64,000 nt of DNA from Platerodrilus igneus (Eukaryota > Arthropoda > Insecta > Coleoptera > Lycidae). The notes under the pieces were generated by a model, which was not told the DNA's origin, made no database searches, and saw nothing but the letters and a program-made list of their open reading frames with translations. The DNA lies in NCBI GenBank assembly GCA_036346225.1, contig JARFIW010001186.1, positions 1,003,501 through 1,067,500 of the forward strand, in the 5' to 3' direction. Made by a program: the position numbers and the translations under genes. Positions 18,186 through 64,000 of the stretch are shown piece by piece. The first letter of the stretch is position 1; the number at the start of each line of letters is the position of its first letter.

Positions 18186-18268
18186 TAGAACATAAACACA
18201 TTTCGGAGTGTGCATGCACGCACACACACAACACATGCACACTCGAAATGTCTTTATGTTCTACCTAT
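18139..18268. repeat. (AT)n tract followed by an inverted repeat
   Basis: An (AT)n run (18139-18182) leads into a hairpin with ~35-bp arms, 18181-18216 and 18234-18268 (ATAGGTAGAACATAAA mirrored by TTTATGTTCTACCTAT, one arm base missing), with a CA-rich loop. The layout resembles the (AT)n-bordered PLE hairpins elsewhere in the window, but no PLE coding sequence is present. Confidence 0.6.
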
Positions 18269-21930: not shown

Positions 21931-22078
21931 AACTACCACTAACACCAATCAGTACCTCAAACAAAATGATCACAAGGGCTAATATTTAAATCAAGTAATT
22001 GTGCAAATTCAAATAAGAAATGAGTGTGCAAACATGAATTTAGACAACATTAGCAATATGTAAAATATCAGGACAGTT

Positions 22079-22456
22079 TCATGATCAGACAGTTTAACAT
22101 ATGATTGCTCATCCCAAGGTCCCACGTTCAATTCCCGATACAGATTGCTTGAAAATTGTTAGGCAAGTATTTTTTACAAAAATTCAACCCGTTCGGATGA
22201 GAGGTAAAATGTAGATACCGTGCATGTGTGTGTGTGTGTGCATTATCATGCATGTTAAATACCCCTACCTTGCTTGATTCGACAAAATTCAAAATTTCCA
22301 GGTAAAAAAAAACTCGTTCCTTGGTCAATGTAGTATCGTTGGGTGAAATATACGAAAATAAAATGTAGGAATATGTAAAATACCATTTGAAAAATGTTAA
22401 GCAAGCATTTTTCATAACACCCTTGTACGGGTGAGAGATGTGTGCAAATAACTTGT

Positions 22457-22461
<5 letters not shown>
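22079..22461 (+). mobile_element. tRNA-derived SINE
   Basis: The head contains TCAGACAGTTTAACATATGA, a degraded box A region, followed about 30 bases later by GTTCAATTCCC, a near-consensus box B, in AAGGTCCCACGTTCAATTCC context typical of a tRNA T arm. Downstream is a body with an internal GT repeat and two related blocks (GCTTGAAAATTGTTAGGCAAG and GAAAAATGTTAAGCAAGC). The element ends at an (AT)n run at 22462-22493. No transcription terminator or target duplication was assigned. Confidence 0.5.
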
Positions 22462-27754: not shown

Positions 27755-27838
27755 GAATATAGCCAGCCGTACATGATACAATTAAAGCAAGATTAACTTA
27801 ATAATCTTGCTTTAATTGTATCATGTACGGCTATATTC
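27755..27838. repeat. Near-perfect 84-nt hairpin
   Basis: Arms of about 37-41 bases (CCGTACATGATACAATTAAA mirrored by TTTAATTGTATCATGTACGG) surround a 5-6 base loop; the only break is a 4-base insertion (CCAG region) in the left arm. Size and pairing would fit a miniature inverted-repeat element or a small-RNA precursor; neither is shown. Confidence 0.75.
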
Positions 27839-33659: not shown

Positions 33660-33802
33660 CATGGATTTAATATAAACTTCTTATAACCATTTCAATTGTA
33701 AACAATTGTAAATTGTAAACTTTATAATCTATCCTGATGAAGAAAATAAACATTTTCGAAAGCTTGAAATGGTTATAAGAAGTTTATATTAAATCCATTT
33801 TC
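33660..33802 (+). other. PLE-like hairpin with a hammerhead-like motif
   Basis: Arms of about 31 bp (33662-33692, GGATTTAATATAAACTTCTT..., and its reverse complement at 33768-33798) enclose CTGATGA (33734-33740), an extra A, a strong helix II (GAAAAT/ATTTTC, loop AAAC) and GAAAGCTT. These are the parts of a hammerhead of the PLE type with palindromic helix III. Helix I next to the core pairs only two bases, and the extra A after the core is atypical, so cleavage is uncertain. The left arm begins almost exactly where the cleaved RNA 5' end (GAAATGG) would start, which suggests a head-to-head copy begun at a self-cleaved end. Confidence 0.5.
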
Positions 33803-36029
33803 TATACGACCTTGCTCTATGTATATAGTTTAAATGTTGCTTGTGGTTTATAGGTCAGCTAGTAAATAAGATAATGCTCTTTTTTATTGCCTAAATTTTG
33901 ACATTTATTTAATTCTTGTTCACAGGCACTAAAATGTAGGGACATAGTGTTAAATGACATATTTTTATGTAGATTCGTGGTAAGGAAAAAATTAATAATT
34001 TGTATACGTTAATTTAATACAAGGTTGACTATTGCAGGCAAATATTAAAGCTTCGCGATATATAAAAATCAATAATTGATGCAACGGATATTTGTTTAGC
34101 ATCGTAAACTAAAGGGTACGTTAACTTAATTCGTAGAAGGCGACAAAACCGCATAACCAAACGGTTAAGGAGTTCAGTTCAGTTCAGTACAAAACTTTCG
34201 ATTCAATGGTATAAAATATTCATCAAAAGCTTAAGTATAAAAATAATAATCTGAACTTCTTTATTTTATTTATCTAATAAAATAGATTGATCTATGCACA
34301 AGATACTCTAAATGTTTAAACATAACAATAATATTTTTATTTACTAAAAATTCTCGAAACTGCCAAAGTTGTTTATTATCTACCCAAATTTTATGCGAAT
34401 ATCCTTGCATTAAATTAACCATCAATTTACGAATTCCTTTGGATATTTAAACGAGGACATTGATAACAGTGCACAAACAAAGACCAAAAATAAGTGAAAA
34501 ACACTTACCGATCTGTATTTAAAAAAAATAACTGGATTTTCCGAACTATGTGTTTTGAATTAAATTTGACGTAAACACACGTAGCACCTGCATAGTACAT
34601 CTGCTTCAATGCAATATTAAAAGACCGCCGTTTTAAACTCAGCAGACCGTTAGATATTTCTTATTCTTAAAGATGCAAATTTAACCAACTTATTCAATTT
34701 CCATTCTTTTACTAGTTTATTAATCTTCCATATTAATCTATATGCTACGTCATTTTCAGATTTAAGTATTCGCATAATATTGAAGATCTAAATTTTAATT
34801 TATCTTTACTTTCTACTGCTGTCGTTTAGTCCTAACTTAATTTGAATTTTGATTTTGCCACACTAAAAGGATTGCAACATCTTGGTGTTAAAATTCGTTA
34901 CAAAAATAATACCACGGAGCATTACAAACGTGGCCATTTAATGACACACAAGGAAAATGAGAGTCCTCACACTATATATGCTTGCTTTATGATGAGAAAT
35001 CAACATCACTCATAAGGGTCCTTCACAAAAAATAGCCTCTAATTCAAAATTGTAATGCCTAATCTATAAGAGATACCACATGGTGCTTTGAAGCGTTATA
35101 CTTAGCGAGCACGCTGTCGGTCTTCAATTAGCAACAGACTGTTAATTTTGTGTTTCAGAGAATATAATACCTTTCATGCAAGTGCTAATATCAAATTATA
35201 ATGTGTACTCTTTAACCTTCGTTCAGATTAGATGCCTTGTAAAATATAATAAAAGCATTCTTCTTAATTTTCTTTGGGAATTAAACCACTCATAGTTTTT
35301 AAAATCTACTTTATTTACGTTTCGAAGATTAAGAAGAATGCTAAACAAGCCACAACAAACATACAGGGAGTATAATAAAAGCAGTTTTCTATCATAAATA
35401 AGTTACTGTGATACAAAACGAAAACATGAATTCTTAAGGTAAATCTTTTTAAATAACTACTTCATATCGGTAATTTAATAATAAAGCCACATTTTTATAT
35501 TTAAATATGAAATATTATACCAAAAAAGAAAACTGAAATTTAATTTGATACAGTACCTATACCAAAAACTTATTGTACAGGATTCTATTGCTTACAACTT
35601 TTGTCAATGGATTGCAGCGTCAACTTTGGTTAAGTAGTAGTGCTATCCAAACTGATTGTTATCTTTTTTAATGGAGTTATACATTTATACTGCTTAACCA
35701 TAAAATAATAGAAAACTTTGCTTTGCTTAAATCCAGATGTATAAGAATACGCAATGAGCCGGGGGCTATAAGTACTTTAGGGTGCGTTTCTAGGTATATT
35801 ATGTTTCGTGTTTTGTTTAATATTTATATCTGTGATTTTATGTAGAACAGATTATATAAAATTAAACTTTTGTTTATCAAACGTTCACTTCTTTTTTGTT
35901 TAGGGTAAAAGAGGAATTACAAGTTTTTTAAATTTTTGGAAATTCATAAACGAATTCTAAAACTTTTTAAATTTTAATAATTGCATATTACTTACATTTA
36001 TATTTTAAGCTAATTATTGTTATTTACAG
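33803..36029. other. No recognised gene; probable intron or upstream DNA
   Basis: Upstream of the main recombinase exon. I saw no exon with convincing splice sites and phase. A small inverted repeat (35254-35268 with 35328-35342, AGCATTCTTCTTAAT) is present. The last bases (TTATTTACAG) form the splice acceptor for 36030. Confidence 0.35.
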
Positions 36030-38108
36030 CTTATTCGCAAGGAGGTTCACCAAAGCCAATTGCGTGCGTATCACCTTTTACACCCCAATCTAAAGTGGGA
36101 GAGGATGAACCATTTCCTGAGTCTGAAAGCGAATACTTTCCCAGCCCACATTCATCAATTAGTGAAGCCGAAGGTCCTGAAATACTTCAAGAAACAGTAT
36201 TACGTGCAGCAGATGTCAGTTTAATGAAACTACTTGCTAAAATGGAATATACTACTGAAGCAACTTATACGACAAATTGTAAAATTATAGATTCCACATC
36301 GAAAGCTACAAATGCTGTTGGATTTGTGGTTGAAGAGTGCTATAATACTGCAGAAAAAAGAGTACTGATCGATTTTGCAAAAAAAGATAGTGGGAAAAGA
36401 ATTCGTGACAAGGTACATTCGTGTTATTTTTGCAATAAATTGTTTAAGAATAATTTACCTCGACATTATCAACGAGCACACAGTAATGAAACTGAAGTTG
36501 CAAAAATTTTTGCCATACCAGGTCTTAAAAGGAGAAGGGAAGAATTAATAAATTTAGGAAGATGTGGAGATTTTTATCATAATTGTGAAGTCCTAACCTT
36601 GCCGAAAGGAGAATTAATATTAGCACGAAGACCAGCTGAACATGATTTGCAGTTTTCAGCTTACACAGATTATGGACCATGCCCCGAATATTTTGGATTT
36701 ATGCTAAAACGCCATATCTGGCATCATCTGAAATATAGCTGTAATGTCAAAAGAAACCAAAATGAAACGACAGATAAGTGTGAAAATTTTGATAGACGAT
36801 TAGTTGTTACAGAGAATGCAGCATTACTAAATGGCATTCTGGCGCGAACTTTATCAAAAGAGTTTGTGTCAAATATTTTGAATAAGTTTAAGCATGATGA
36901 TATCTCAGAAGTTTGTAAAGCAGATCCCTTGGTTGTAAGGTATGGTGCATTTTTGTATGAGAAGTACAACTCTTCCCAAGGCAAATTAATAAGGCAAAGT
37001 ATGCGACAACTAGCTAGGTTAATTTTGGAGGTGCGACAACATAGCAATGACGTTTTTTTAAGTGAACTTATTTGCCTGCAGAATTTTGACACTATTATTT
37101 TAGCAACGAAACGACTATGTCTTTCTAATACAGAAAATGTAAGTAGGCCACAGTTTGGCATACCGTCTCTAGCGCTTAAAATGGGATATGCTTTAAAAAA
37201 ATGTGCTGCTATTGAGAGGGGACAAGCCCTCAGACGTGGCGACCTTGCAAAAAACAAAAAACTAATAGCTTTTTTAACCTTGTTAAAAATTGAATGGAGT
37301 GTTAAAATATCTTCAAATGCTAAGGCAACTTTGGAATCACGGAAATTGAATGCTGTTGACTTACTTCCGTTAACAAGTGATCTTTTAAAACTTAGGGTTT
37401 ATTTGGATAACTCTATTAAGAAAATTAAAACTGACATCATGCAGTCTTTTACAAGGAATAGTCGGGTGGATTTGGCATCGTTAACGTTAGTCAGAATTAT
37501 ATTGTTCAATAAACGCCGTTCGGGAGAAGCATCTAAAATTACCATGCAACAGTATGCAACACGTCCTTCATGGAACAATTTGGGAACTGAGGAAATCAAA
37601 AATTCATTAACATCGTTTGAAAACGAATTAGCATCCAAACTAACACTTGTGCAAGTAATTGGAAAGCGGGGAAGATTAGTACCTGTCATTCTTTCGCACG
37701 AGGTTAAACAAATCATAGATCTGCTTATACATACAAGGGTTAAAGCAGGCATTGAAAACGAAAACCCATATATCTTTGCCGTGCCAGGTACTGCCGTAAG
37801 CCATGTAAGAGGTCATGATTGTATTAAGAAGTGGTGTCTAGAAGCAGGATTGCAGTTCCCTGCTATAATTACGGGCTCCAGATTAAGAAAATATGTTGCA
37901 ACTGTTAGTCAATTATTTGATCTAACTGAAAATGAGCAGGATTGGTTAGCACGCCATCTTGGGCATGATATTCGTGTTCATCGCGAATTCTACCGCTTAC
38001 AAGAAAATGCAGTGGAACTTACCAAAATCAGCAGATTATTAATAACTATTGGCCAAGGAGAAGCAGTAAAGTTTTCGAATAAAAAGTTACAGGACATAAG
38101 TATTAAAG
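36030..38108 (+). CDS. Crypton-type tyrosine recombinase-like protein, main exon
   Basis: Open for about 693 codons from the acceptor TTTACAG|CT to the donor AAAG|GTAATT, with no internal stop. The few codons before 36030 are intronic. An acidic N-terminal stretch (EDEPFPESESEYFPSP) precedes a C2H2 zinc finger, CYFCNKLFKNNLPRHYQRAH (near residue 136 counted from 36017). The C-terminal half looks like a tyrosine recombinase catalytic domain: NKRRSGEASKI (first Arg, RxGE context, near 500), VIGKRGRLVPV (Lys, near 548), SRLRKYVATV (second Arg, in the HxxR region with S in place of H), LGHDIRVHREFYR (His/GH region and final Tyr, near 650-660). The residue pattern fits an intact R-K-R-H-Y set. Such proteins occur in Crypton transposons and as host genes derived from them. 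Entry and exit phases are both 1. It presumably acts on DNA in the nucleus; catalysis is not shown. Confidence 0.8.
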
Positions 38109-38758
38109 GTAATTACAAATGATTATTTCTACTTCGGGTTGCAAAATTTTTTAAAAATCAAATATGAGAAAAAGTAATCTTCATCAGTTGACGAGGAAAG
38201 TGTTTGCTTTAATTCAGTGATTTCAATTGTAATATAAACCAGTTGATTTAAATTAGTGATAGTTTTTCCTAGCAAGCCCAATAGTGTATACAAATGTTGG
38301 ACTATCATGTCGTATTAACTAAAACGAGAAGATAAAAGTTTCCAAAAACATCCACTCTTGTTGTAATTGGGCCCTGCTATAATATTTAATGTGATATCAC
38401 AAATGAAAGCTTTGTTCTAAAGCATTTCATTACAATTAGAATAAATAAATAAAACCGATTTTCACAAGAAATGCTCAAAATACGCAACATTGGTCTCCAT
38501 GCAGTAGTTAAGTAGATTGTCAAATGCTTATCTTATTTTTGCGTGTATGAAATATTTCTACAATCATTTATACTTTTTTGAAGCAAATCGTGTGTCTTTG
38601 TTTAGGTTGGTTTTGGAAATTTTTGTTTTGGTTTCTGAAATACTTCAAGTGTATTGTTTAAAAAAACACTTATTACATCCATAGGATTCATGCTCAATTT
38701 TGTATTTCTGTCCATAGCCTTATACATTTTAAAATGAATTAAAATAAAATTGTTTCAG

Positions 38759-46468: not shown

Positions 46469-46690
46469 ATGGGTCATGGGTCAACTGGGTCACTGGGTCC
46501 AAGTGGGTTACTTTTTTGTTTGGGTTACTGGGTCAGTGGGTCCCGTGTACTGACCCGGATTGACCCAGTGACCCACATTGACCCAGTGACCCACATTGCC
46601 TCAGTGACCCATGTTGACGCAGTGACCCAAATTGACCTGGTGACCCAAACTGACCCAGTGACAAAACTGACCCAATTGATTCAGTAACAA
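46469..46690. repeat. Left subterminal GGGTCA/TGACCC repeat cluster
   Basis: More than fifteen copies of GGGTCA or TGACCC spaced by 4-9 bases. Orientation switches near 46550, where GGGTC copies give way to GACCC copies. The 72-codon open frame here (IDPVTHIDPVTH...) is an artefact of the repeat. Confidence 0.85.
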
Positions 46691-47534
46691 ATTGAATTAT
46701 TGAAGTCATAAAAATCTTTTTCCTATACTTTCAGCTCAATTTATTAACTATTTTCACAAATGCATAAACTTATTGGTGCCGTTAGTTGCTAGCATTCGTT
46801 TAATATTTCAAGCAAACGCTGAAATGTTTTGTAATCAATACATCGCTTTTTATATAATATGAAACGCATTTTTACAAGTTTTTCAAGAAACGTGCTGTGG
46901 CGCTGTGCCGCGAGAATGCAGTGTTATGAACGTACACAATTTTGTATGTTCAAATAATAGTATTCTTTCACATAAGAACTGAAATAATTTGTAGCAAAAA
47001 TCTTAATATTATATACCCGGTTATTTTCAGTGCCCATTATTTTTGTAATTTGTATATCATTATCATTAAGCATGGATAAACATCACCTTAATTGTAATTT
47101 AAACCTTATACATAAGTGCTGACTTTTATAAATCTCCGTGAGACCGAGTTTTCTTGATAAGACTAATTAACTAAAAGAATGATGAAGATCATATAAAACA
47201 ATTTTCCTGTATCAATCAACTCGATGTCAGAAAACGGGATTATTGAATTTATATTTTATTGCGTCTGTCATTGAAAAATGTTTTGGTCATTTAGTTTATT
47301 TAATTGTTAAACATTCTCACACTAATTAAAATTGTCTCGGACAGCAGCTACTCCTTCTGCCAGATAGTTCTGAGATTTATTTTGTAACTGTAATTCGTAG
47401 AACAGCACATATTTATTAAAAATTAATAATAAAATCTCCAAATTTCATAATCGGTTATTCGATAAAACTCGCCCACTAATTGAAGACATCACAGAGGATC
47501 AATTTGAGACAGTAAGAAAATTTTTGCAACTGCA

Positions 47535-47705
47535 TCAATTTGGGTCAATTTAGGTAACTGGGTCAATTTGGGTCACTGGGCCAATGTGGGTCAATTTAGG
47601 TCGCTGGGTCAGTGTGGGTCAATTTGGGTCACTGGGTCATGGGTCACTGGGTGGTGGGTCACATCCTCATTTGGGTCACTGGGTCACATTTTAGGTGACC
47701 CATTT
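47535..47705. repeat. Right subterminal GGGTCA repeat cluster
   Basis: About fourteen GGGTC(A/G/C) copies in GGGTCAATTTGGGTCACTGG-like arrangement, mirroring the left cluster of the same hAT element. Confidence 0.85.
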
Positions 47706-49265: not shown

Positions 49266-49520
49266 TATGTGTGTGTGTGTTCGTGCATGCGTGTGTGTGT
49301 GAGCGCGCGCGCGTGTGGGGTGTGCGCGCATGCGTGCGTGGGTGCGTGTGTGAGTGTGCGTGCGTGGGTGCGTGTGTGTGAGAGAGTGAGTGTGTGTGCA
49401 TGCGTGCATGGGTGGATGCGTGCGTGTGTGTGTGAGTGTGTGTGCGTGTGAGCGCGCGTGTGGGGGTGTGCGCGCGCGTGCGCACGTGCGTGGGTGCGTG
49501 CGTGTGTGTGAGTGTGTGTT
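49266..49520. repeat. GT/GC-rich purine-pyrimidine alternating tract
   Basis: About 250 bp of (GT)n with many GCGCGC, GCGTGC and GAGTGT variants. It sits where the (CA)n tract (52948-53095) lies in the mirrored PLE arm, so it is the expanded microsatellite of the minus-strand PLE copy, which ends in it. Long alternating purine-pyrimidine runs can adopt Z-DNA. Confidence 0.9.
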
Positions 49521-49529
49521 TTGAATATT

Positions 49530-51255
49530 TTTAATTTATTTGTTAGTGGTTTGAAAATTTAGAAGATACTGTATATATAGAGCTCAAACTATCAAAATCA
49601 GTTTTTTTGTTCATACTGTTAGAATTTTGAAAAATGTAACACATTTCAAGAAATTCTCTTTTCTTTTTATGACTTTCAATGTCTAAAATTTTTAGTGTGT
49701 TGAAATGTATCTCATGATGAGTGCTATTAACATGAGTAGTTAAAGCACATGCATTGGGTTTGACTCGTATGTCACTTTTATGTTGAGTAATACGTTGTTT
49801 TAACTTTTGTAAGCTTTGTCCTATGTAAGATTGGTCACAATTTAAACAATTAATTTTGTAGATAACGTTTCGTTGGTATAATGGAGTTGTTTTATCTTTT
49901 ACTTTAGAGAATAGGTTATTTAGAGTTAAACTATTCCTTTTCACAATTTTTATGTTAAATTTTTTGAAAATATTTTCTAATTTGACGGTTAAATGTTCTA
50001 TATAAGGGAGAGATTGAAATGTTAAAGTAGTATCGTTTTGGTTTTTTGTGTTATTATTGAGAATTGCATGAGGTGTCATGTGATTGTATAGAAGACATTT
50101 AATTAAATTGGATGGATAGTTGTTGTTTTTTAGTATGATAAAGAGTTTTTTAAATTTTTTTGGTATAACGATGGATGACTAATTTTTTGAACTCTATTTT
50201 TTAAACCTAAGATGATGTTAATTTTAATGTTGTATGAGTGATATGATAAATAATTTAAATATCTGCCGGAATTAATAGGTTTTTGATACCAATCTAAAAT
50301 AATGTTGTTTTCTAAATTTCTAATTAGTAAAGTGTCTAAAAAAGGAATCGAGCGATTATTTTCGTTTTCTATGGTAAATTGTATTTTGTTGTTATAACTA
50401 TTGAAAATTTGTAAGGTTTCATTGAGTTATCTTTAGGAATAGCTGTTACCATGTCGCCTACAAATTTCTTTATCAATGGTAAACTGAAAGGGAGTTTAGG
50501 GATCACATTATCTAGTAGGGTGTCCATGACAATTTTGGCTAATATAGGACTTAAATTGGAGCCCATTGGACAGCCAGATATCTGAACATAAAATTTATTA
50601 TTAAATTTAAAATAACTTGTTTCAAAGAGAAAATTAATAATTTCTATAAAAACCGGTTTTGAGATATTACAATTGTTTGTGATGTTTAACCATAAGTTAA
50701 CAATATTTTGTAATACTAACTCTTTTGAAATGTTTGTGAAGAGTGAAATTATATCTAAACTTATTAATATATAATTATTTGGTAGTTGGTAGTTGTTTAT
50801 AAAGGTTGCAAGTTCAAAAGAATCTTTTACATTGTTTTCGTTTAGATTTGTTGATTTTTCTAAAATAATAGCAATGAATTTAGAGAGCTTTTCAGTTGGA
50901 TTATTGTATGAAGCTACAATTGGTCGAATTGGGTTATCTAATTTATGGATTTTTGGTAGACCATATAATTTTGGAATTGAGCTGCTATAATTATTACGTA
51001 ATTTAGCTTCTTCATTAGTAATGAATTTTTTGTTTTTTAGCTCTTGTATAAATTTTAAGGTTTGTGCTTGAAAGCGAGATGGGGTCTACAGGAATTTCTT
51101 TGTAAGTTAAATGATCATTGAGTAAGGTGTCTATCTTCTGAATATAGTCAGCTTTTGAAATGGCTATGCTTAAGTTTCCTTTATCAGCTTTTAATATAAG
51201 TAAATCACTATTTTCTTTTAAGTATTTACGACATTTGTTGAAGTCTAACATAAAT
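49530..51255 (-). pseudogene. Penelope-like element copy, minus strand
   Basis: 5'-truncated PLE. In order on the minus strand: MLDFNKCRKYLKENSDLLIL KADKGN-type RT start (51251-51015); RT segment MGSNLSPILAKIVMDTLLDN with active-site region FVGDMVTAIPKD (50566-50369), where the expected DD reads GD; and a 178-codon frame (50079-49543) with VIYKINCLNCDQSYIGQSLQ (GIY-YIG), LKQRITQHKSD and KKREFLEMCYI (catalytic glutamate). Several frameshifts lie between these frames. The RT active-site change and the frame breaks make it inactive. It faces a second copy (51264-) head to head. Confidence 0.85.
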
Positions 51256-51263
51256 TTTGATTT

Positions 51264-53047
51264 AACGTTATGTTAGACTTCAACAAATGTCGTAAATACT
51301 TAAAAGAAAATAGTGATTTACGTATATTAAAAGCTGATAAAGGAAACTTAAGTGTAGACATTTCAAAAGCTGACTATATTCCAAAGATAGATACCTTACT
51401 CAATGATCCTTTAACTACAAAGAAATCCTGTAGACCCGACATCTCGCTTTCAAGCACAAACCTTAAAATTTATACAAGAGCTAAAACAAAAATTCATTAC
51501 TAATGAAGAAGCTAAATTACGTAATAATTATAGCAGCTCAATTCCAAAATTATATGGTCTACCAAAATCCATAAATTAGATAACCCAATTGACCAATTGT
51601 AGTTCTACAATAATCCAGCTGAAAAGTTCAAATTCATTGTATTATTTTAGAAAATCAACAAATCTAAACGAATACAATGTAAAAGATTCTTTGAATTTGC
51701 AACCTTTATAAACAACTACCAACTACCAAATAATTATATATTAATAAGTTTAGATGTAATTTCACTCTTCACAAACATTTCAAAAGAGTTAGTATTACAA
51801 AATATTGATAACTTATGATTAAACATCACAAACAATTGTAATATCTCAAAACCGGTTTTATAGAAATTATTATTTTCTTTGAAACAAGTTATTTTAGATT
51901 TAATAATAAATTTTATCTTCAGATATTTGGCTGTCCAATGGGCTCCAATTTAAGTCCTATATTAGCCAAAATTGTCATGGATACCCTACTAGATAATGTG
52001 ATCCCTAAACTACCTTTCAGTTTACCATTCATAAAGAAATTGGTAGACGACATAGTAACAGCTATTCCTAAAGATAAACTCAATGAAACCTTACAAATTT
52101 TCAATAGTTATAACAACAAAATACAATTTACCATAGAAAACGAAAATAATCGCTCGATTCCTTTTTTAGACACTACTAATTAGAAATTCAGAAAACAACA
52201 TTATTTTAGATTGGTATCAAAAAACTATTAATTCCGGCAGATATTTAAATTATTTATCATATCACTCATACAACATTAAAATTAACTTCATCTTAGGTTT
52301 AAAAAATAGAATTCAAAAAATTAGTCATCCATCGTTATACCAAAAAAATTTAAAAAAACTCTATCATACTAAAAAACAACAACTATCCATCCAATTTAAT
52401 TAAATGTCTTCTATACAATCACATGACACCTCATGCAATTTTCAATAATAACACAAAAAACCAAAACGATACTACTTTAACATTTCAATCTCTCCCCTAT
52501 ATAGAACATTTAACCGTCAAATTAGAAAATATTTTCAAAAAATTTAACATAAAAATTGTGAAAAGGAATAGTTTAACTCTAAATAACTTATTCTCTAAAG
52601 TAAAAGATAAAACAACTCCATTATACCAACGAAACGTTATCTACAAAATTAATTGTTTAAATTGTGACCAATCTTATATAGGACAAAGCTCACAAAAGTT
52701 AAAACAACGTATTACTCAACATAAAAGTGACATACGAGTCAAACCCAATGCATGTGCTTTAACTACTCATGTTAATAGCACTCATCATGAGATACATTTC
52801 AACACACTAAAAATTTTAGACAAATTCTAACAGCATGAACAAAAAAACTGATTTTGATAGTTTGATCTCTATATATACTTATCTTCTAAATTTTCAAACC
52901 ACTAACAAATAAATTAAAAATATTCAGTAATCTACACAACAGCTACTAACACACACACACACACACACACACGCATGCACCCACGCACACACCCACACAC
53001 ACACACCCACCCACCCACCCACACACCCACTTACCCACCCACCCACC

Positions 53048-53079
<32 letters not shown>

Positions 53080-53426
53080 CGCACACACACACACAACATG
53101 CTATTTAAGATTTAACTAAAAAATTTTAAAAAAAGGAGGGGAGCTTTCAGTCAAAAATAAAACACTTACCTGTCAAATGTCAAACTTTACCTAACTTCCA
53201 ACAAGTTTATACCCCTAATGTTTGTATTGCTAAACAAATGTATTTTTAATTTATATCTGTAGCCTCACTTTAGTAAGTAACAGTATACCTTTAAAATTTT
53301 ACAGTATTACTATTTCTGTATATTTTAGTATCTTTGACAAAGGATTGAATATATCAGAAAGCTTAGATTTATAAAAAAGAGTACTGATTATTTAAAAAGA
53401 CCTGAAACCTACAAAAAGAATACCAT

Positions 53427-53427
<1 letters not shown>
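51264..53427 (+). pseudogene. Penelope-like element copy, plus strand, with 3' tail
   Basis: Mirror partner of 49530-51255. The same first residues (MLDFNKCRKYLKENSDLRIL) open at 51270, the RT segment at 51938 keeps LVDDIVTAIPKD with both aspartates, and the GIY-YIG part lies at 52423-52830. A deletion of about 50 bp after KILD removes the stretch with the catalytic glutamate (present as KKREFLEM in the other copy). A (CA)n tract (52948-53095) and a ~330-bp tail follow, ending GAATACCATT before (AT)n. The tail is the same as that fused to the LINE at 22751-23240. Frame breaks occur between the RT parts. Confidence 0.85.
52948..53095. repeat. (CA)n/(CCCA)n tract in the PLE 3' region
   Basis: CA dinucleotides interrupted by CACCCA and CGCA variants. 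Counterpart of the GT-rich tract at 49266-49520 and of the shorter (GT)n near 23082-23097 in the LINE-fused PLE tail. Confidence 0.9.

Positions 53428-53470
<43 letters not shown>
53428..53470. repeat. (TG)/(AT)n junction between PLE and ribozyme array
   Basis: Short TGTG followed by about 19 AT units. It directly separates the PLE 3' end from the first 511-bp hammerhead unit. Confidence 0.9.
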
Positions 53471-53473
<3 letters not shown>

Positions 53474-53638
53474 ACAAGTTATTTGCAGTCCACAATAGGA
53501 AATAGTATATAAAGTAAGATGTATCTGTAAACAAACCCTTATGAAAATAATAAGAGCTATTGACAAATACAAATGGGGCTAGTAGTTATATAGCCATTAA
53601 CAAAACATTAGCTTTATTACTTCACAGGGGAGGAAACA

Positions 53639-53683
53639 TCCACTGACCAATGGTTTCGGCTTGTTAAGCCTCATCAGAGTGAA
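53639..53683 (-). ncRNA. Hammerhead ribozyme 1, all core bases intact
   Basis: Minus strand in order: helix I strand TTCACT; core CTGATGA; helix II GGCTT/AAGCC with loop AAC; GAA; helix III ACC/GGT with loop ATT; cleavage triplet GTC; helix I strand AGTGGA, pairing 6 bp with TTCACT (one G-T wobble). All invariant hammerhead positions are present. Predicted cleavage lies between plus-strand positions 53645 and 53644. Helix III has only 3 bp, as in minimal hammerheads of PLEs and animal retrozymes, which may need dimerisation for efficient cleavage. Confidence 0.88.
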
Positions 53684-54149
53684 ATAGTTCCCAAGAACCC
53701 TATGAAGTAATCGAAGCTATTATAATGATATAATTTCGAAACAATCACTATACTATGGCAAAAGTAAATAAAACCGCCATCAGGTGATAAAACACCAACA
53801 CTACTAAAGTGTGGAAGTACAGAATTGAACCGAAACTACATAATAAATTTTATAGATGACTATAAAAGTACGTCTGGCCTTTGAGATTTGCGGAATGTTA
53901 CAGCAAAATTTATTTGCAAACGTAACAAACCTTCTCGTGGAGACACCCGGGTTCATGCCCCAAAGGCAATTCAAATAAATAAAGACAAGTTATTTGCAGT
54001 CCGCAACAAGAAGTAGTATATAAAGTAAGATGTATCTGTAAACAAACTCTTATGAAAATAATAAGAGTTATTGACAAATACAAATCGGGCTGGTAGTTAT
54101 ATAGCCATTAACAAAACATTAGCTTTATTACTTCACAGGGGAGGAAACA

Positions 54150-54194
54150 TCCACTGACCAATGGTTTCGACCTGTTAAGCCTCATCAGAGTGAA
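54150..54194 (-). ncRNA. Hammerhead ribozyme 2, core intact
   Basis: Same layout as the first copy. Helix II differs (GGCTT with AGGTC) but pairs through two G-T wobbles. CTGATGA, GAA, helix III ACC/GGT and GTC are all kept. Confidence 0.85.
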
Positions 54195-54469
54195 ATAGTT
54201 CCTAAGAACCCTATGAAGTAATCGAAGCTATTGTAATGATATAATTTCGAAACAATCACTGTACTATGGCAAAGTAAATAAAACCGCCATCAGGTGATAA
54301 AACACCAACACCACTAAAGTGTGGAAGTACAGAATTGAACCGAAACTACATAATAAATTTTATAGATGACTATAAAAGTACGTCTGGCCTATGAGATTTG
54401 CGGAATGTTATAGCAAAATTTATTTGCAAACGTAACAAACCTTCTCGTGGCGACACTCTTGAGAACTAT

Positions 54470-54514
54470 TTTACTCTGATAAGGCTTAACAAGCCGAAAC
54501 CACTGGTCAGTGGA
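54470..54514 (+). ncRNA. Hammerhead ribozyme 3, G8 changed
   Basis: Plus strand. Helix II and GAA are intact and helix III reads ACC...GGT with loop ACT, but the core is CTGATAA, changing conserved G8, a catalytic residue, to A. Helix I has one further change (TTTACT). Probably inactive. Confidence 0.78.
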
Positions 54515-54984
54515 GGTTTCCTCCCCTGTGAAGTAATAAAGCTAATGTTTTGTTAATGGCTATATAACTACCAGCCCGATTTGTATTTGTCAATAGCTCT
54601 TATTTATTATTTTCATAAGAGTTTGTTTACAGATACATCTTACTTTATATACTATTTCCTATTGCAAACTGCAAATAACTTGTCTTTATTTATTTGAATT
54701 GCCTTTGGGGCATGAACCCGGGTGTCGCCACGAGAAGGTTTGTTACGTTTGCAAATAAATTTTGCTGTAACATTCCGCAAATCTCAAAGGCCAGACGTAC
54801 TTTTATAGTCATCTATAAAATTTATTATGTAGTTTCGGTTCAATTCTGTACTTCCACACTTTAGTAGTGTTGGTGTTTTATCACCTGATGTCGGTTTTAT
54901 TTACTTTTGCCATAGGTCAGTGATTGTTTCGAAATTATATCATTGTAATAGCTTCGATTACTTCATAGGGTTCTTGGAAACTAT

Positions 54985-55029
54985 TTCACTCTGATGAGGC
55001 TTAACAAACCAAAACCATTGGTCAGTGGA
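54985..55029 (+). ncRNA. Hammerhead ribozyme 4, G12 changed
   Basis: Plus strand. CTGATGA, helix I and helix III are intact, but helix II reads GGCTT/AAACC and the base after it (G12) is A, giving AAAA instead of GAAA. The G12 change removes the putative general base and fits C-to-T decay of a CpG on the other strand. Probably inactive. Confidence 0.78.
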
Positions 55030-55189
55030 TGTTTCCTCCCCTGTGAAGTAATAAAGCTACTGTTTTGTTAATGGCTATATAACTACCAGCCCGATTTGTA
55101 TTTGTCAATGGCTCTTATTATTTTCATAAGAGTTTGTTTACAGATACATCTTACTTTATATACTACTTCTTGTTGCGGACTGCAAATAA

Positions 55190-55190
<1 letters not shown>

Positions 55191-55231
<41 letters not shown>
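55191..55231. repeat. (AT)n microsatellite
   Basis: About 19 TA units separating the 511-bp unit array from the next ribozyme-bearing hairpin. Confidence 0.95.
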
Positions 55232-55233
<2 letters not shown>

Positions 55234-55314
55234 AATAAGTAAATTTAATGAGTCTTAAAATAATATCAAAGAATGAAATTTAATAGCAGTAACTAAATAT
55301 TAGCCACAAGGGCA

Positions 55315-55359
55315 TCCTGTCGACACGTTTTGCCCTTATTGGGGCTCATCAGGACAGGA
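55315..55359 (-). ncRNA. Hammerhead-like motif, G12 changed
   Basis: Minus strand: helix I TCCTGTC/GACAGGA (7 bp), core CTGATGA, helix II GCCC/GGGC with loop CAATAA, then AAA in place of GAA, helix III ACGTGT and cleavage base C. Only G12 deviates, and GGGCAAAAC instead of GGGCGAAAC fits CpG decay. Probably inactive now. Confidence 0.7.
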
Positions 55360-55367
55360 GTAGCGAC

Positions 55368-55411
55368 TCCTGTCCTGATGAGCCCCAATAAGGGCAAAAC
55401 ACGTCGACAGC
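55368..55411 (+). ncRNA. Mirror hammerhead-like motif, G12 changed
   Basis: Plus strand: TCCTGTC, CTGATGA, GCCC/GGGC, AAA, ACACGTC, GACAG. Same G12 change as its mirror, and helix III differs slightly (ACACGT). Confidence 0.68.
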
Positions 55412-55481
55412 ATGCCCTGTGGCTAATATTGAGTTACTGCCATTAAATTTAATTTTGATATATATATATATATATATATAA

Positions 55482-57289
55482 TTTTTTTTTAAAAGTCGAC
55501 CGTTAAGTTGCTCTTCCCACAGATTTTTGTATTTTTTCTTGGAAACCGTGAGAGCAGCAACGATGAACTTTGGTGCATTAAAATCGTCATCCTTTTTTGT
55601 TATTTTACGAAATGGATGTGAAATGTGTCTTCTGTTGCATTTTTAAAGGCTTTAAATAATAAAATCATTTCCATAATTATAATTATCACAAAAATGTTAA
55701 AGTACTTAGCCATTTACATTGAAAGCATGTTAACTTTATAAGACAATTTAAGAAAATTTATCACTTTAAATAAACATTCTTTTCATAAGAGATTTAGAGA
55801 GAAATAGTCACCTTTGTAATAGTCTGCAACAATATTCTGCTAAAGCTTGAGTAGTATTGTTTGCACTATGTATATTCCACCTGTAACTTTTTGTGCCCTT
55901 ATAAGAACATGCATTAGTTCCTTTATTTTAAGATTAAGCTATGTTAATTCTTATGCAACTGCTAAGACTAATGTTGCGAAATCACACATATACAAAGGCT
56001 AACAACTGTTAAAAACAACAACCGAGACAGATCCGTGCCGAGTTGTCGGTATTCGGATCTCATATTGAACGCGAAGTATCTTTATCAATGTATACAAAAC
56101 CAAATAGTGTGCCAACTGGTAGGAAACTTGTAAATCCTTTGCGATAATTTGAGAAATTCGAGTACTGGTGAATAATTCACGATTGGCATTAACGACAGAT
56201 TCTTTTTTGCTTTAAATTAGTATCACAACGTCGTCTTAAATGTGTACACATTAAATATGTTAAAAAAAACTTTAAAGTGCTCCAGTTCTGTTTTATTGGA
56301 TACATGTCTATTTAAATTACGCAAGGGAATCATCTGATGAAGTCTTTTCTGACATTGATTATAAATCAACCTGCATAATAAGCGGATGTCAATAATTTAA
56401 AAAAATTAATATTAAATAATCATTTTAATGCACATTACTCCAAACATAAAAATGCAAGACAAAATGTTATAGTAATATTAAAGTCTGTTGGTTACGTTAA
56501 CGATTTCAAAATCATTTTATTCTTATAATAGAATCAAAACTACCATATACTACACATTAATTCTTACATGCACAACAGCTAGGTTAATATAATTTGTTAG
56601 TTACTAATTACTTTATTTAAAAATTACAAATTTCTACTACAACACTTACAATTTGTAAGACTTGTTAACCCAGAGAGTGTAGCGATGGGGGGGCACTTCT
56701 AATTTGCTGAATACATTTAGGAATTTGCATAACGGGAATTATTAAGCCTTCTACCCATCAGAATTTCATAAAAATAACGTTAAACGATGCGGTCAACCTG
56801 ACCGCATCTAATAATATCAGATTTAATAAAAACAATTGTGTAGATACTTATTTATTTACCATTATGCAAATTCTTTAGTAATCTACATTGACTAGTTGTT
56901 AATTTGTAGCAACTGCGCATGTGCAGAAGTTACAGAAATCTGCAAATACGGTTTCAGAAACTACAACAACGATGGCGCAAAGAGCATAAAACTAAAATAA
57001 TACAGAACATTTCATTTAATATATTTTTATTTCAAAACATAGATAAACACCCACCGGTTTTATCTATGTTTCAAATATTTGCTACGGTTTCTGAATAAAA
57101 AATACATATTCATTTGTGACAACTCTAATTGTATTAAGGTAGCTTTCCAAATATATTATTTAATGAGTAAAGTTAAATATAATTTTTAAACAAATATATT
57201 ATTTTTTCCAAATTACCATTTAATAAATATTTTGTACAATGAAATTGAATCTGAACCTCAATAAAAAGGCAAAGCTATTTTGTCCGCAT
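55482..57289. other. Intergenic DNA with two small palindromes
   Basis: No gene recognised. Two perfect hairpins: 56786-56808 (GATGCGGTCA, loop ACC) and 57035-57071 (AAACATAGATAAA arms, 11-base loop). A run of seven G is at 56688-56694. The stretch ends at the first diverged satellite unit. Confidence 0.4.
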
Positions 57290-60200
57290 TATTTAAAAAG
57301 TTACAGCGAAATATACAACAATGGTCAAACGACAAAACCAATTCAAATTTTTTCTATTTTTGACCCTATCGAGTTCGAACTTTGTAATTTAAATGCACTA
57401 TGACCGACCGCACCAAACGCAAAAAATTGCAAGCTTCTATGCAGAAAATTGTGGCTGCCAAGAGCCGCCAAATATCCATTCAGCAAAATACAATTTGTGA
57501 CGTAACTTTTTTCTAAATATAAAAATCGATGTTAAATATTAATCAATCGGTAAAGCTTTCTCGTCCGCATCATTTGAAACAAGTTCCAACGAGCTATGTA
57601 GTTGCGGTCAAGAGCCACAGTCATTTCAAAATTTTTCAAAATTTTTTTATTTTTAACCCTATCGAGTTCGAACTTTGTAATTTCAATGCACTATGACCGA
57701 CCACACGCAACGCAAAAAATTGCAAGCTTCTATGCAGAAAATTGTGGCTTCCAAGAGCCGCCAAACATCCATTCAGCAAAATACAATTTGTGACATAACT
57801 TTTTCTAAATATAAAAATCGATGTTAAATATTAATAAATCGGTAAAGCCTTCTTGTCCGCATCGTTTGAGACAAGTTCCAACAAGCTATGTAGTTGCGGT
57901 CAAGAGCCACAGCCATTTCAAAATTTTTCAAAATTTTTTTATTTTTGACTCTATCGAGTTCGAACTTTGTAATTTCAATGCACTATGACCGACCACACGC
58001 AACGCAAAAAATTGCAAGCTTCTATGCAGAAAATTGTGGCTTCCAAGAGCCGCCAAACATCCATTCAGCAAAATACAATTTGTGACATAACTTTTTCTAA
58101 ATATAAAAATCGATGTTAAATATTAATAAATCGGTAAAGCCTTCTTGTCCGCATCGTTTGAGACAAGTTCCAACAAGCTATGTAGTTGCGGTCAAGAGCC
58201 ACAGCCATTTCAAAATTTTTCAAAATTTTTTTATTTTTAACCCTATCGAGTTCGAACTTTGTAATTTCAATGCACTATGACCGACCACACGCAACGCAAA
58301 AAATTGCAAGCTTCTATGCAGAAAATTGTGGCTTCCAAGAGCCGCCAAACATCCATTCAGCAAAATACAATTTGTGACATAATTTTTCTAAATATAAAAA
58401 TCGATGTTAAATATTAATAAATCGGTAAAGCCTTCTTGTCCGCATCGTTTGAGACAAGTTCCAACAAGCTATGTAGTTGCGGTCAAGAGCCACAGCCATT
58501 TCAAAATTTTTCAAAATTTTTTTATTTTTGACTCTATCGAGTTCGAACTTTGTAATTTCAATGCACTATGACCGACCACACGCAACGCAAAAAATTGCAA
58601 GCTTCTATGCAGAAAATTGTGGCTTCCAAGAGCCGCCAAACAACCATTCAGCAAAATACAATTTGTGACATAACTTTTTCTAAATATAAAAATCGATGTT
58701 AAATATTAATAAATCGGTAAAGCCTTCTTGTCCGCATCGTTTGAGACAAGTTCCAACAAGCTATGTAGTTGCGGTCAAGAGCCACAGCCATTTCAAAAAT
58801 TTTCAAAATTTTTTTATTTTTGACTCTATCGAGTTCGAACTTTGTAATTTCAATGCACTATGACCGACCACACGCAACGCAAAAAATTGCAAGCTTCTAT
58901 GCAGAAAATTGTGGCTTCCAAGAGCCGCCAAACATCCATTCAGCAAAATACAATTTGTGACATAACTTTTCTAAATATAAAATTGATGTTAAATATTAAT
59001 AAATCGGTAAAGCCTTCTTGTCCGCATCGTTTGAGACAAGTTCCAACAAGCTATGTAGTTGCGGTCAAGAGCCACAGCCATTTCAAAATTTTCAAAATTT
59101 TTTATTTTGACTCTATCGAGTTCGAACTTTGTAATTTCAATGCACTATGACCGACCACACGCAACGCAAAAAATTGCAAGCTTCTATGCAGAAAATTGTG
59201 GCTTCCAAGAGCCGCCAAACATCCATTCAGCAAAATACAATTTGTGACATAACTTTTTCTAAATATAAAAATCGATGTTAAATATTAATAAATCGGTAAA
59301 GCCTTCTTGTCCGCATCGTTTGAGACAAGTTCCAACAAGCTATGTAGTTGCGGTCAAGAGCCACAGCCATTTCAAAATTTTCAAAATTTTTTTTAATTTT
59401 GACTCTATCGAGTTCGAACTTTGTAATTTCAATGCACTATGACCGACCACACGCAACGCAAAAAATTGCAAGCTTCTATGCAGAAAATTGTGGCTTCCAA
59501 GAGCCGCCAAACATCCATTCAGCAAAATACAATTTGTGACATAACTTTTTCTAAATATAAAAATCGATGTTAAATATTAATAAATCGGTAAAGCCTTCTT
59601 GTCCGCATCGTTTGAGACAAGTTCCAACAAGCTATGTAGTTGCGGTCAAGAGCCACAGCCATTTCAAAATTTTTCAAAATTTTTTTATTTTTAACCCTAT
59701 CGAGTTCGAACTTTGTAATTTCAATGCCCTATGACCGACCACACGCAACGCAAAAAATTGCAAGCTTCTATGCAGAAAATTGTGGCTTCCAAGAGCCGCC
59801 AAACATCCATTCAGCAAAATACAATTTGTGACATAACTTTTCTAAATATAAAATCGATGTTAAATATTAATAAATCGGTAAAGCCTTCTTGTCCGCATCG
59901 TTTGAGACAAGTTCCAACAAGCTATGTAGTTGCGGTCAAGAGCCACAGCCATTTCAAAAATTTTCAAAATTTTTTTATTTTTGACTCTATCGAGTTCGAA
60001 CTTTGTAATTTCAATGCACTATGACCGACCACACGCAACGCAAAAAATTGCAAGCTTCTATGCAGAAAATTGTGACTTCCAAGAGCCGCCAAACATCCAT
60101 TCAGCAAAATACAATTTGTGACATAACTTTTCTAAATATAAAATCGATGTTAAATATTAATAAATCGGTAAAGCCTTCTTGTCCGCATCGTTTGAGACAA

Positions 60201-60755
60201 GTTCCAACAAGCTATGTAGTTGCGGTCAAGAGCCACAGCCATTTCAAAATTTTCAAAATTTTTTATTTTGACTCTATCGAGTTCGAACTTTGTAATTTCA
60301 ATGCACTATGACCGACCACACGCAACGCAAAAATTGCAAGCTTCTATGCAGAAAATTGTGGCTTCAAGAGCCGCCAAACATCCATTCAGCAAAATACAAT
60401 TTGTGACATAACTTTTCTAAATATAAAATCGATGTTAAATATTAATAAATCGGTAAAGCCTTCTTGTCCGCATCGTTTGAGACAAGTTCCAACAAGCTAT
60501 GTAGTTGCGGTCAAGAGCCACAGCCATTTTAAAATTTTTCAAAATTTTTTTATTTTTGACTCTATCGAGTTCGAACTTTGTAATTTCAATGCACTATGAC
60601 CGACCACACGCAACGCAAAAAATTACAAGCTTCTATGCAGAAAATTGTGGCTTCCAAGAGCCGCCAAACATCCATTCAGCAAAATACAATTTGTGACATA
60701 ACTTTTTTCTAAATATAAAAATCGATGTTAATCAATTAGTAAAGCTTTCTTGTCC
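57290..60755 (+). repeat. Satellite array, ~291-bp units, plus orientation
   Basis: One diverged unit at the left edge (57290-57590) and 11 further units spaced 285-292 bp (marker GTTGCGGTCAAGAGCCACAG at 57602, 57894, 58186, 58477, 58769, 59059, 59348, 59640, 59930, 60220 and 60505, give or take a few bases). Units are nearly identical inside the array and diverge at both edges, as expected of homogenisation by unequal exchange. The ~63-codon frames that recur once per unit are by-products of the repeat. Confidence 0.95.
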
Positions 60756-60779
60756 GCATCGTTTGAAACAAGTTTCAAC

Positions 60780-60935
60780 GGTTTCACGTTCTGAAACAAT
60801 TGGGTAAAATAATTATGCACCACTATGGCTTATATTTACCTTAGACAAGAACTCCTGTGGTTAAAGGCAAGTTTAGCTTATTAAATAAAAGACTCCCGTG
60901 GATGTCTCAGCAACAAATTACAAACATTACGATTT
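60780..60935. other. Non-satellite spacer at the orientation switch
   Basis: About 155 bp without similarity to the satellite, between plus- and minus-oriented halves. The last plus unit is cut after CAAGTTTCAACG and the first minus unit begins at CATTTTGAAATGGCTGTGG. Confidence 0.8.
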
Positions 60936-60939
60936 AAAA

Positions 60940-63900
60940 CATTTTGAAATGGCTGTGGCTCTTGACCGCAACTACATACTTCGTTGGGACTTGTCTCAAA
61001 CGATGCGGACAAGAAAGCTTTACCGATTTATTAATATTTAACATCAATTTTTATATTTAGAAAAAAGTTATGTCACCAATTGTATTTTGCTGAATGGATG
61101 TTTGGCGGCTCTTGGCAGCCACAATTTTCTGCATAGAAGCTTGCAATTTTTTGCGTTGCGTGCGGTCGGGCATAGTGCAATGAAATTACAAAGTTCGAAC
61201 TCGATAGGGTCAAAAATAAAAAAAATTTGAAAAATTTTGAAATGGCTGTGGCTCTTGACCGCAACTACATAGCTCGTTGGAACTTGTCTCAAACGATGCG
61301 GACAAGAAGGCTTTACCGATTTATTAATATTTAACATCGATTTTTATATTTAGAAAAAGTTATGTCACAAATTGTATTTTGCTGAATGGATGTTTGGCGG
61401 CTCTTGGAAGCCACAATTTTCTGCATAGAAGCTTGCAATTTTTTGCGTTGCGTGTGGTCGGTCATAGTGCATTGAAATTACAAAGTTCGAACTCGATAGA
61501 GTCAAAAATAAAAAAATTTTGAAAAATTTTGAAATGGCTGTGGCTCTTGACCGCAACTGCATAGCTTGTTGGAACTTGTGTCAAACGATGCGGAAAAGAA
61601 GGCTTTACCGATTTATTAATATTTAACATCGATTTTTATATTTAGAAAAAAGTTATGTCACAAATTGTATTTTGCTGAATGGTTGTTTGGCGGCTCTTGG
61701 CAGCCACAATTTTTTGCATAAAAGCTTGCAATTTTTTGCGTTGCGTGTGGTCGGTCATAGTGCATTGAAATTACAAAGTTCGAACTCGATAGAGTCAAAA
61801 ATAAAAAAATTTTGAAATGGCTGTGGCTCTTGACCGCAACTACATAGCTCGTTGGAACTTGTCTCAAACGATGCGGACAAGAAGGCTTTACCGATTTATT
61901 AATATTTAACATCGATTTTTATATTTAGAAAAAAGTTATGTAACAAATTGTATTTTGCTGAATGGTTGTTTGGCGGCTCCTAGCAGCCACAATTTTCTGC
62001 ATAAAAGCTTGCAATTTTTTGCGTTGCGTGTGGTCGGTCATAGTGCATTGAAATTACAAAGTTCGAACTCGATAGAGTCAAAATAAAAAATTTTGAAAAT
62101 TTTGAAATGGCTGTGGCTCTTGACCGCAACTGCATAGCTTGTTGGAACTTGTGTCAAACGATGCGGAAAAGAAGGCTTTACCGATTTATTAATATTTAAC
62201 ATCGATTTTTATATTTAGAAAAAAGTTATGTCACAAATTGTATTTTGCTGAATGGATGTTTGGCGGCTCTTGGCAGCCACAATTTTCTGCATAGAAGCTT
62301 GCAATTTTTTGCGTTGCGTGCGGTCGGGCATAGTGCATTGAAATTACAAAGTTCGAACTCGATAGGGTCAAAATAAAAAAATTTGAAAAATTTTGAAATG
62401 GCTGTGGCTCTTGACCGCAACTACATAGCTCGTTGGAACTTGTCTCAAACGATGCGGACAAGAAGGCTTTACCGATTTATTAATATTTAACATCGATTTT
62501 TATATTTAGAAAAGTTATGTCACAAATTGTATTTTGCTGAATGGATGTTTGGCGGCTCTTGGAAGCCACAATTTTCTGCATAGAAGCTTGCAATTTTTTG
62601 CGTTGCGTGTGGTCGGTCATAGTGCATTGAAATTACAAAGTTCGAACTCGATAGAGTCAAAAATAAAAAAATTTTGAAATGGCTGTGGCTCTTGACCGCA
62701 ACTACATAGCTCTTTGGAACTTGTCTCAAACGATGCGGACAAGAAGGCTTTACCGATTTATTAATATTTACATCGATTTTTATATTTAGAAAAAAGTTAT
62801 GTCACAAATTGTATTTTGCTGAATGGTTGTTTGGCGGCTCTTGGCAGCCACAATTTTCTGCATAGAAGCTTGCAATTTTTTGCGTTGCGTGTGGTCGGTC
62901 ATAGTGCATTGAAATTACAAAGTTCGAACTCGATAGGGTTAAAAATAAAAAAATTTTAAAAAATATTGAAATGGCTGTGGCTCTTGACCGCAACTACATA
63001 GCTTGTTGGAACTTGTCTCAAACGATGCGGACAAGAAGGCTTTACCGATTTATTAATATTTAACATCGATTTTTATATTTAGAAAAAGTTATGTCACAAA
63101 TTGTATTTTGCTGAATGGATGTTTGGCGGCTCTTGGAAGCCACAATTTTCTGCATAGAAGCTTGCAATTTTTGCGTTGCGTGTGGTCGGTCATAGTGCAT
63201 TGAAATTATAAAGTTCGAACTCGATAGAGTCAAAAATAAAAAAATTTTGAAATGGCTGTGGCTCTTGACCGCAACTACATAGCTCGTTGGAACTTGTCTC
63301 AAACGATGCGGACGAGAAGGCTTTACCGATTTATTAATATTTAACATCGATTTTTATATTTAGAAAAAAGTTATGTCACAAATTGTATTTTGCTGAATGG
63401 TTGTTTGGCGGCTCCTAGCAGCCACAATTTTCTGCATAGAAGCTTGCAATTTTTTGCGTTGCGTGTGGTCGGTCATAGTGCATTGAAATTACAAAGTTCG
63501 AACTCGATAGAGTCAAAAATAAAAAATTTTGAAAAATTTTGAAATGGCTGTGGCTCTTGACCGCAACTGCATAGCTTGTTGAACTTGTGTCAAACGATGC
63601 GGAAAAGAAGGCTTTACCGATTTATTAATATTTAACATCGATTTTTATATTTAGAAAAAAGTTATGTCACAAATTGTATTTTGCTGAATGGTTGTTTGGC
63701 GGCTCTTGGCAGCCACAATTTTTTGCATAAAAGCTTGCAATTTTTTGCGTTGCGTGTGGTCGGTCATAGTGCATTGAAATTACAAAGTTCGAACTCGATA
63801 GAGTCAAAAATAAAAAAAGTTTGAAATGGCTGTGGCTCTTGACCGCAACTACATAGCTTGTTGGAACTTGTCTCAAACGATGTGGACAAGAAGGCTTTAC

Positions 63901-64000
63901 CGATTTATTAATATTTAACATCGATTTTTATATTTAGAAAAAGTTATGTCACAAATTGTATTTTGCTGAATGGATGTTTGGCGGCTCTTGGAAGCCACAA
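60940..64000 (-). repeat. Satellite array, same unit, minus orientation
   Basis: At least 10 units of about 280-293 bp in reverse orientation, running off the window end. Unit variants are mixed: CTTGGAAGCC, CTTGGCAGCC and CTCCTAGCAGCC types, plus a GTGTCAAACGATGCGGAAAAG-like variant at about 61580, 62150 and 63590. The plus half is almost entirely of one type. This suggests partial higher-order structure. Confidence 0.95.

Follow-up and report, generated by a model that had tools for sequence, protein, structure and literature searches.

A mirrored array of 511-bp hammerhead units in the beetle Platerodrilus igneus, probably a retrozyme insertion made by Penelope-like element machinery

Contig JARFIW010001186.1 of the lycid beetle Platerodrilus igneus (assembly GCA_036346225.1) carries a mirrored array of hammerhead ribozyme units at 53471–55190 of the 64,000 nt analysed here (positions 1,003,501 to 1,067,500 of the forward strand, hereafter the window). 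The array consists of two arms in opposite, head-to-head orientation built from tandem units of about 511 bp, the full unit being 511 nt long in the left arm and 515 nt in the right arm (Table 1). The direct pair of hammerheads, at 53639 and 54150, is spaced by 511 bp as first noted, and the unit has no coding frame, its longest stop-free run being 65 codons. The array probably (at roughly 80%) arose when a member of a retrozyme family, both non-autonomous and non-coding, was inserted by the machinery of a Penelope-like element (PLE).

A type I hammerhead is located at each of the four unit junctions, and the two intact copies lie on the minus strand. Each motif is made up of CTGATGA, a 5-bp helix II with an AAC loop, GAA, a helix III of 3 bp capped by an ATT loop, the triplet GTC and a helix I of 6 bp. 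An initial reading of this DNA made without database searches, termed here the sequence-only reading, had described four such motifs with this core, these helix sizes and the GTC cleavage site, two of them damaged at G8 or G12, and all of this was found again (G8A at 54470–54514 and G12A at 54985–55029). A descriptor of the intact core matches twice in the window, as opposed to 0 times in 300 dinucleotide shuffles. The check with Infernal and the Rfam models which that reading had proposed turned out negative, with 0 matches at the gathering score across the window, and the curated threshold was thus missed. With relaxed filters applied to 53300–55700, Hammerhead_HH9 matched the first unit with 26.0 bits (cut-off 52, E 0.0013); for the palindrome adjoining the 511-bp array (55232–55461) the score was 26.7 bits, also sub-threshold. 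The RF00008 search of the beetle's own genome returned 0 matches, as did the searches of 14 control genomes, which makes this negative uninformative, and exact hammerhead patterns gave 0 and 0 matches in viral contigs. Folded as a circle, the sense RNA of the unit is strongly structured (z −6.8 and −7.1 for two units, 60 shuffles each), while the antisense of the first unit folds less strongly (z −3.6, 60 shuffles).

The unit belongs to a dispersed family. In the 2.71-Gb assembly (1723 contigs), the 511-nt query gave 188 matches at the 39 places scored out of 1397 candidates. The anatomy of the copies was analysed at 37 of the 39 scored places, including the window; the two left out lie on C646, where multi-unit arrays of opposite orientation are found about 9 kb apart (G000 C646:614865-617059 and 626194-628810). 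Loci L023 and L027 cover their arrays only in part, and two more arm pieces lie 0.5–1 kb off at L033. The 37 sites contain 64 arms with up to at least seven unit pieces per arm (chaining gaps below 60 nt), and a 3' end is visible in 63 of them. These ends are concentrated at two unit positions, with 25 at site A (131–140), 27 at site B (172–182) and 11 elsewhere. The alignments extend into (TA)n, the true junctions following CTTT at about 134 (A) and 175 (B). On the sense strand of the unit, the hexamer CTTTAT occurs at positions 131 and 172 only, so that the A and B ends are 41 nt apart at one and the same word. Of the 25 A ends, 19 adjoin a TA-rich flank, as do 23 of the 27 B ends; among background windows drawn from the fetched flanks, 51 of 10,744 are TA-rich. 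The unit's other TATATA, at position 53, is never used as an end (0 of 63), and microhomology alone therefore does not account for sites A and B. The 5' ends of A and B arms, in turn, are scattered over unit positions 1 to 480. A pattern joining the B end to TA (at most one mismatch) was found at 145 places in the genome and its reversed form at none; of two such places that were fetched, one is a diverged relative (L060) and the other a truncated unit (L061).

At 25 of the 37 sites, a minus arm is directly followed by a plus arm. Both outer ends could be classified in 17 pairs, comprising 14 A+B, two B+B (one of which is the window) and one A+A, and 14 or more A+B pairs were reached in 310 of 20,000 label shuffles. 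The arms overlap by 1–9 bases at the centre in 13 of the 25 pairs, which suggests that the two complementary DNAs (cDNAs) may have been joined through microhomology. A preference of the family for palindrome centres was considered and rejected, as mirrored outer flanks were seen at two of ten sites with TA on two sides and at four of 90 between-site controls.

Gapped alignment recovered 108 junction motifs from the genome copies, of which 78 are free of indels. Among these 78, the core is intact in 57 and the core together with all helices in 41, and at least one fully intact hammerhead is present at 27 of the 29 sites having an indel-free motif. In 20 of the 30 motifs with indels, the sole indel is the loss of one base at the border of helix II and loop II, and in 19 of these 20 it is accompanied by a T to C change in helix I, by which a G-U pair becomes G-C. 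The sequence-only reading had asked for compensatory helix changes among copies; the changes seen are mainly of the G-U/G-C type, with C-G replaced by T-A twice in helix III, and broken pairs occur too.

Variants are shared more within insertions than between them. Four variant columns, chosen by eye as likely subfamily marks out of 16 informative ones, give agreement in 317 of 330 comparisons of units in one arm, in 125 of 137 between the arms of a site and in 12,131 of 20,498 between sites. Among 58 full units, the mean difference is 2.3% at the same site (35 pairs) and 3.6% between different sites; same-site units differ by 2.1% on the same strand and by 3.1% in six opposite-strand pairs. 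A within-site mean difference as low as this was reached in 0 of 2000 label shuffles. Higher agreement within an insertion is expected if one kind of RNA feeds each insertion. The pattern would fit insertions that each stem from a single RNA species copied while circular, and a multimer transcribed from a uniform array would fit as well.

As read from the assembled copies, the family combines tandem hammerhead units, dispersed copies, two preferred 3' ends, 5' truncation and head-to-head arms with (TA)n as its apparent targets. It has the animal-retrozyme features that were tested, except for the reported size range, and it is without the open reading frame (ORF) that defines a PLE. In the available text of PMC7229834, metazoan retrozymes without long terminal repeats (non-LTR) are likewise described as tandem units which are non-coding and bear type I hammerheads, with a low GC content, strongly folded RNA and co-existing PLEs. 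In contrast to these, the 511-nt unit lies outside the 150–450 bp given there for animal retrozyme repeats, and the family has head-to-head arms and two preferred 3' ends in (TA)n. The interval of 150–450 bp is read here as the size range seen so far and not as a defining limit. The words "inverted," "tail" and "head-to" have zero occurrences in the main text of PMC7229834, and the open-licence searches made turned up no retrozyme described as having two fixed 3' ends or arms placed head-to-head. The sequence-only reading had taken the long unit and the palindrome as possible marks of an undescribed form, and both points are weakened, as a unit of about 500 bp is known from pDo500 and palindromes are usual in PLEs, although these searches gave no account of the palindrome in retrozymes. 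pDo500, a satellite of Dolichopoda cave crickets which self-cleaves in vitro and makes up about 5% of one genome (PMC2837043), resembles the family by description in its insect host, its units of roughly 500 bp and its hammerhead. It differs in being a satellite, for which the available text describes no insertion anatomy.

The insertion footprint of the 511-bp family matches the one published for PLEs. At AT-rich sites, the purified PAc PLE protein of Anolis cleaves both strands of the DNA and extends them, and it starts reverse transcription at two adjacent internal sites, accounting for an optional 30–40-bp tail (PMC11167929, available text). Among inverted PLE copies of Adineta, the head-to-head arrangement is the most frequent, and one of the inverted pseudo-LTRs optionally carries a 31-bp tail (PMC3846280, available text). 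The family has in common with these Penelope/Poseidon elements the AT-rich targets, the putative priming of both strands, head-to-head copies, an optional tail on one copy and a hammerhead near the start site; the two internal start sites that give the 30–40-bp tail have their counterpart in the A and B ends, 41 nt apart, which make up 52 of 63 ends. Conversely, the 511-nt unit has no ORF, the reverse transcriptase and GIY-YIG domains being found in separate neighbours, its helix III is formed and its units stand in direct tandem. In print, the PLE has been named as only a likely or strong candidate mover of animal retrozymes (PMC7229834, available text). The sequence-only reading had suggested a non-autonomous element, either retrozyme-like or derived from a PLE, as the possible template of a PLE reverse transcriptase; this is supported and fits the genome-wide anatomy of the copies.

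In the mechanism proposed for this retrozyme, every hammerhead in a transcript of tandem units would cleave it, releasing RNAs of 511 nt that would close into circles. The PLE protein would bind the unit RNA, and its GIY-YIG nuclease would break both strands of AT-rich DNA, whereupon each 3' DNA end could prime reverse transcription at internal site A (after about 134) or B (after about 175). Reverse transcription round the circle would produce tandem units, every cDNA would stop at a random point, and the two cDNA ends would be joined centrally, leaving a mirrored pair with (TA)n flanks. It is further conceivable, although this extension is put forward only tentatively and at somewhat less than even odds, that a PLE dimer acts as a two-ended copier, its protomers starting at A and B, respectively, on circular retrozyme RNA of one kind. 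Either start would be primed by its own side of the broken (TA)n, and reverse transcription round the circle would write tandem units to the left and right, the cDNAs being joined afterwards. If so, the bias toward A+B pairs would be the footprint of an asymmetric dimer, common to retrozymes and PLEs. The family thus offers a retrozyme integration footprint which is readable in dozens of copies and matches one explained by a purified PLE protein. It makes the question of which enzyme moves animal retrozymes directly testable, provides two predicted start sites and bears on how PLEs generate mirrored insertions.

The window itself contains PLE remnants and a second hammerhead family (Table 1), neither of which the sequence-only reading had included in its account of the array. 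In the PLE palindrome near 16 kb, the arms (16064–17579) are 99.3% identical, and a tail of about 34 nt (16030–16063), set in (TA)n, is present on the left arm only. A one-arm-only tail is also seen in the family of about 300 bp next to the 511-bp array (55232–55461), and its occurrence in both a PLE (16030–17579) and a hammerhead family speaks for the PLE-driven retrozyme. The frame of the 16-kb PLE has no Pfam match, and it found the same L034, L030 and L045 places as the GIY-YIG frame of the other PLE in the window. Searched against the genome, the end of the 16-kb PLE gave 41 matches (40 scored of 687 candidates). At L030, the ~300-bp family forms three direct units adjoining a 511-bp array, and at L052 a 511-bp arm lies inside a copy of the ~300-bp family.

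Two candidates for a partner PLE were rejected. The element ending at 22443–22461 consists of a SINE-like repeat (short interspersed nuclear element; 22060–22440, with a B-box-like stretch recognised by eye and 65–73% copies in four fetched loci) followed by about 19 nt which look like an extremely truncated unit. The other, L060:467-723, is related to the unit (76%) in the hammerhead and start region and ends at site B in a TA tract; its hammerhead core is decayed, the DNA upstream is unrelated to the unit, and no PLE-like frame was recognised there by eye.

Several observations weigh against a retrozyme moved by PLE machinery. No autonomous PLE having the unit's start region was found. Slower change of the hammerhead is not clear among the copies (non-CpG values of 0.0273 for the whole motif, 0.0164 for the core and 0.0178 for the rest), as is expected of insertions which decay after arrival. 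The four variant columns were chosen by eye, and the contrast is weaker across all 16, where 743 of 818 (neighbours) and 484 of 524 comparisons agree within arms, 528 of 602 between arms and 70,071 of 85,901 between sites. The window's own arms form a B+B pair where A+B would be typical, and both mix variants at column 147. Furthermore, BLAST detected no inverted partner at 12 of the 37 sites, among them L027, where the locus is cut but the plus arm appears in the scored list, and L036, which has a 10-nt plus arm by eye. In eight of the 25 pairs, the outer end of one arm is at neither A nor B: it lies inside the unit without a TA flank at L034, L038, L048 and L053, which could reflect ordinary twin priming or later loss, corresponds to alignment breaks that continue at L025 and L026, and remains an unclassified stop at L029 (position 158) and L049 (position 148). 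As regards the tail, 40 of the 41 PLE matches reach its end, and this set is biased to tailed copies because the query ended there too; three minus/plus PLE neighbours 1.4–4.1 kb apart resemble head-to-head pairs with two tails. Lastly, the unit RNA of the ~300-bp family shows no unusual folding (z −1.1, 100 shuffles), and this family may therefore represent either the terminal repeat of a PLE or another retrozyme.

The alternative that survives best, itself unlikely, is that the units are pseudo-LTRs of an autonomous PLE, and hence PLE-derived debris instead of an independent retrozyme. According to the available literature, PLE pseudo-LTRs share the end signature of the units and bear type I hammerheads of the minimal form. 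An ATG inside the unit's hammerhead core opens a frame of 25 codons, comparable with the Anolis PLE, whose ORF starts at hammerhead stem II (PMC11167929, available text), and the 76% relative L060 shares only the hammerhead and start region with the unit. Against these points, the units abut directly, with at least seven pieces in one arm, which leaves no room for an ORF between them. The unit RNA is also strongly folded, as stated for retrozymes in the available text of PMC7229834, and its helix III has 3 bp and a loop, whereas PLE hammerheads are described in the available sources as being without helix III or without loop contacts.

Considerably less probable is a retrozyme moved by a long interspersed nuclear element (LINE) through ordinary or twin-primed target-primed reverse transcription. 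Twin priming also yields inversions, LINE-like frames are present in the window (an RVT_1 match at 30066–30605 just under the cut-off, class assigned by eye), and L034, L038, L048 and L053 have the one outer end without TA inside the unit. Twin priming should, however, start the second cDNA arbitrarily, and both outer ends are A or B sites in 17 of the 25 pairs; moreover, the printed end flanks contain no poly-A, no search for a shared LINE tail having been made. Least probable of all is a hammerhead satellite spread by recombination or extrachromosomal circles and mirrored through DNA rearrangement, which would agree with C821 and C1164, where about a dozen units stand in tandem, and with the cricket satellite of roughly 500 bp, but not with dozens of short dispersed insertions whose outer ends lie mostly at two unit positions abutting (TA)n, a pattern unexpected from unequal exchange.

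Table 1. Features of the 511-bp array, the adjoining ~300-bp family and the PLE remnants in the window.
Feature	Position	Strand	Remarks
Second PLE family	16030–17579		endonuclease end; head-to-head palindrome with (TA)n on both sides
Truncated 511-nt unit	22443–22461	+	last ~19 nt, ending at site B, then (TA)n; probably at the end of a SINE-like repeat
Broken PLE copies	49357–53427		large palindrome; right end abuts the (TA)n preceding the 511-bp array
GIY-YIG remnant	49543–50178	−	within the palindrome at 49357–53427
RVT_1 remnant	50369–51085	−	within the same palindrome
Frame just under GIY-YIG cut-off	52354–52830	+	within the same palindrome
(TA)n tract	53433–53470		target at the 3' end of the left arm
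Left arm	53471–54456	−	5'-truncated 301-nt unit, complete 511-nt unit, 174-nt 3' piece that stops at site B
Hammerhead 1	53639–53683	−	core and helices intact; predicted cut between 53645 and 53644
Hammerhead 2	54150–54194	−	core intact; helix II maintained via G-U pairs
Right arm	54457–55190	+	52-nt 5' piece, complete 515-nt unit, 167-nt 3' piece that ends at site B
Hammerhead 3	54470–54514	+	core change G8A
Hammerhead 4	54985–55029	+	core change G12A; broken C-A pair in helix II
(TA)n tract	55192–55231		separates the two insertions
PLE-like "tail"	55232–55262	−	31-nt extra 3' extension (length by coordinate subtraction), left arm only of the second palindrome
Second head-to-head palindrome	55263–55461		TA-flanked; truncated copies of the ~300-bp tandem hammerhead family
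Minimal hammerhead, ~300-bp family	55315–55359	−	G12A
Minimal hammerhead, ~300-bp family	55370–55410	+	G12A

The remainder of the window contains further repeats. Short palindromes are found at 13376–13539, 18172–18277, 27765–27832 and 33661–33798, three of them beside or near (TA)n, and the last contains CCTGATGAAG...TTTTCGAAAG, which resembles a decayed hammerhead. BEL/Pao-type retrotransposon frames occupy 4431–9491 (4431–5132 and 6465–9491), with another at 20156–20524 recognised by eye only. An open frame of 702 aa at 36014–38122 has no Pfam match at E 0.001; its best named relatives are from beetles (top matches 45–57% identical over 62–96%), and hemipterans are also represented among the 72 matches (8000 candidates scored). 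Judged by eye, it is perhaps a mobile recombinase-like gene and may be a mobile repeat. Tandem repeats of TGACCCA/TGGGTCA stand inverted about 1 kb apart at 46551–46695 and 47519–47687, and a 292-bp tandem satellite at 57342–64000 forms two opposite blocks (57.2–60.8 and 60.9–63.9 kb) which are about 93–95% identical.
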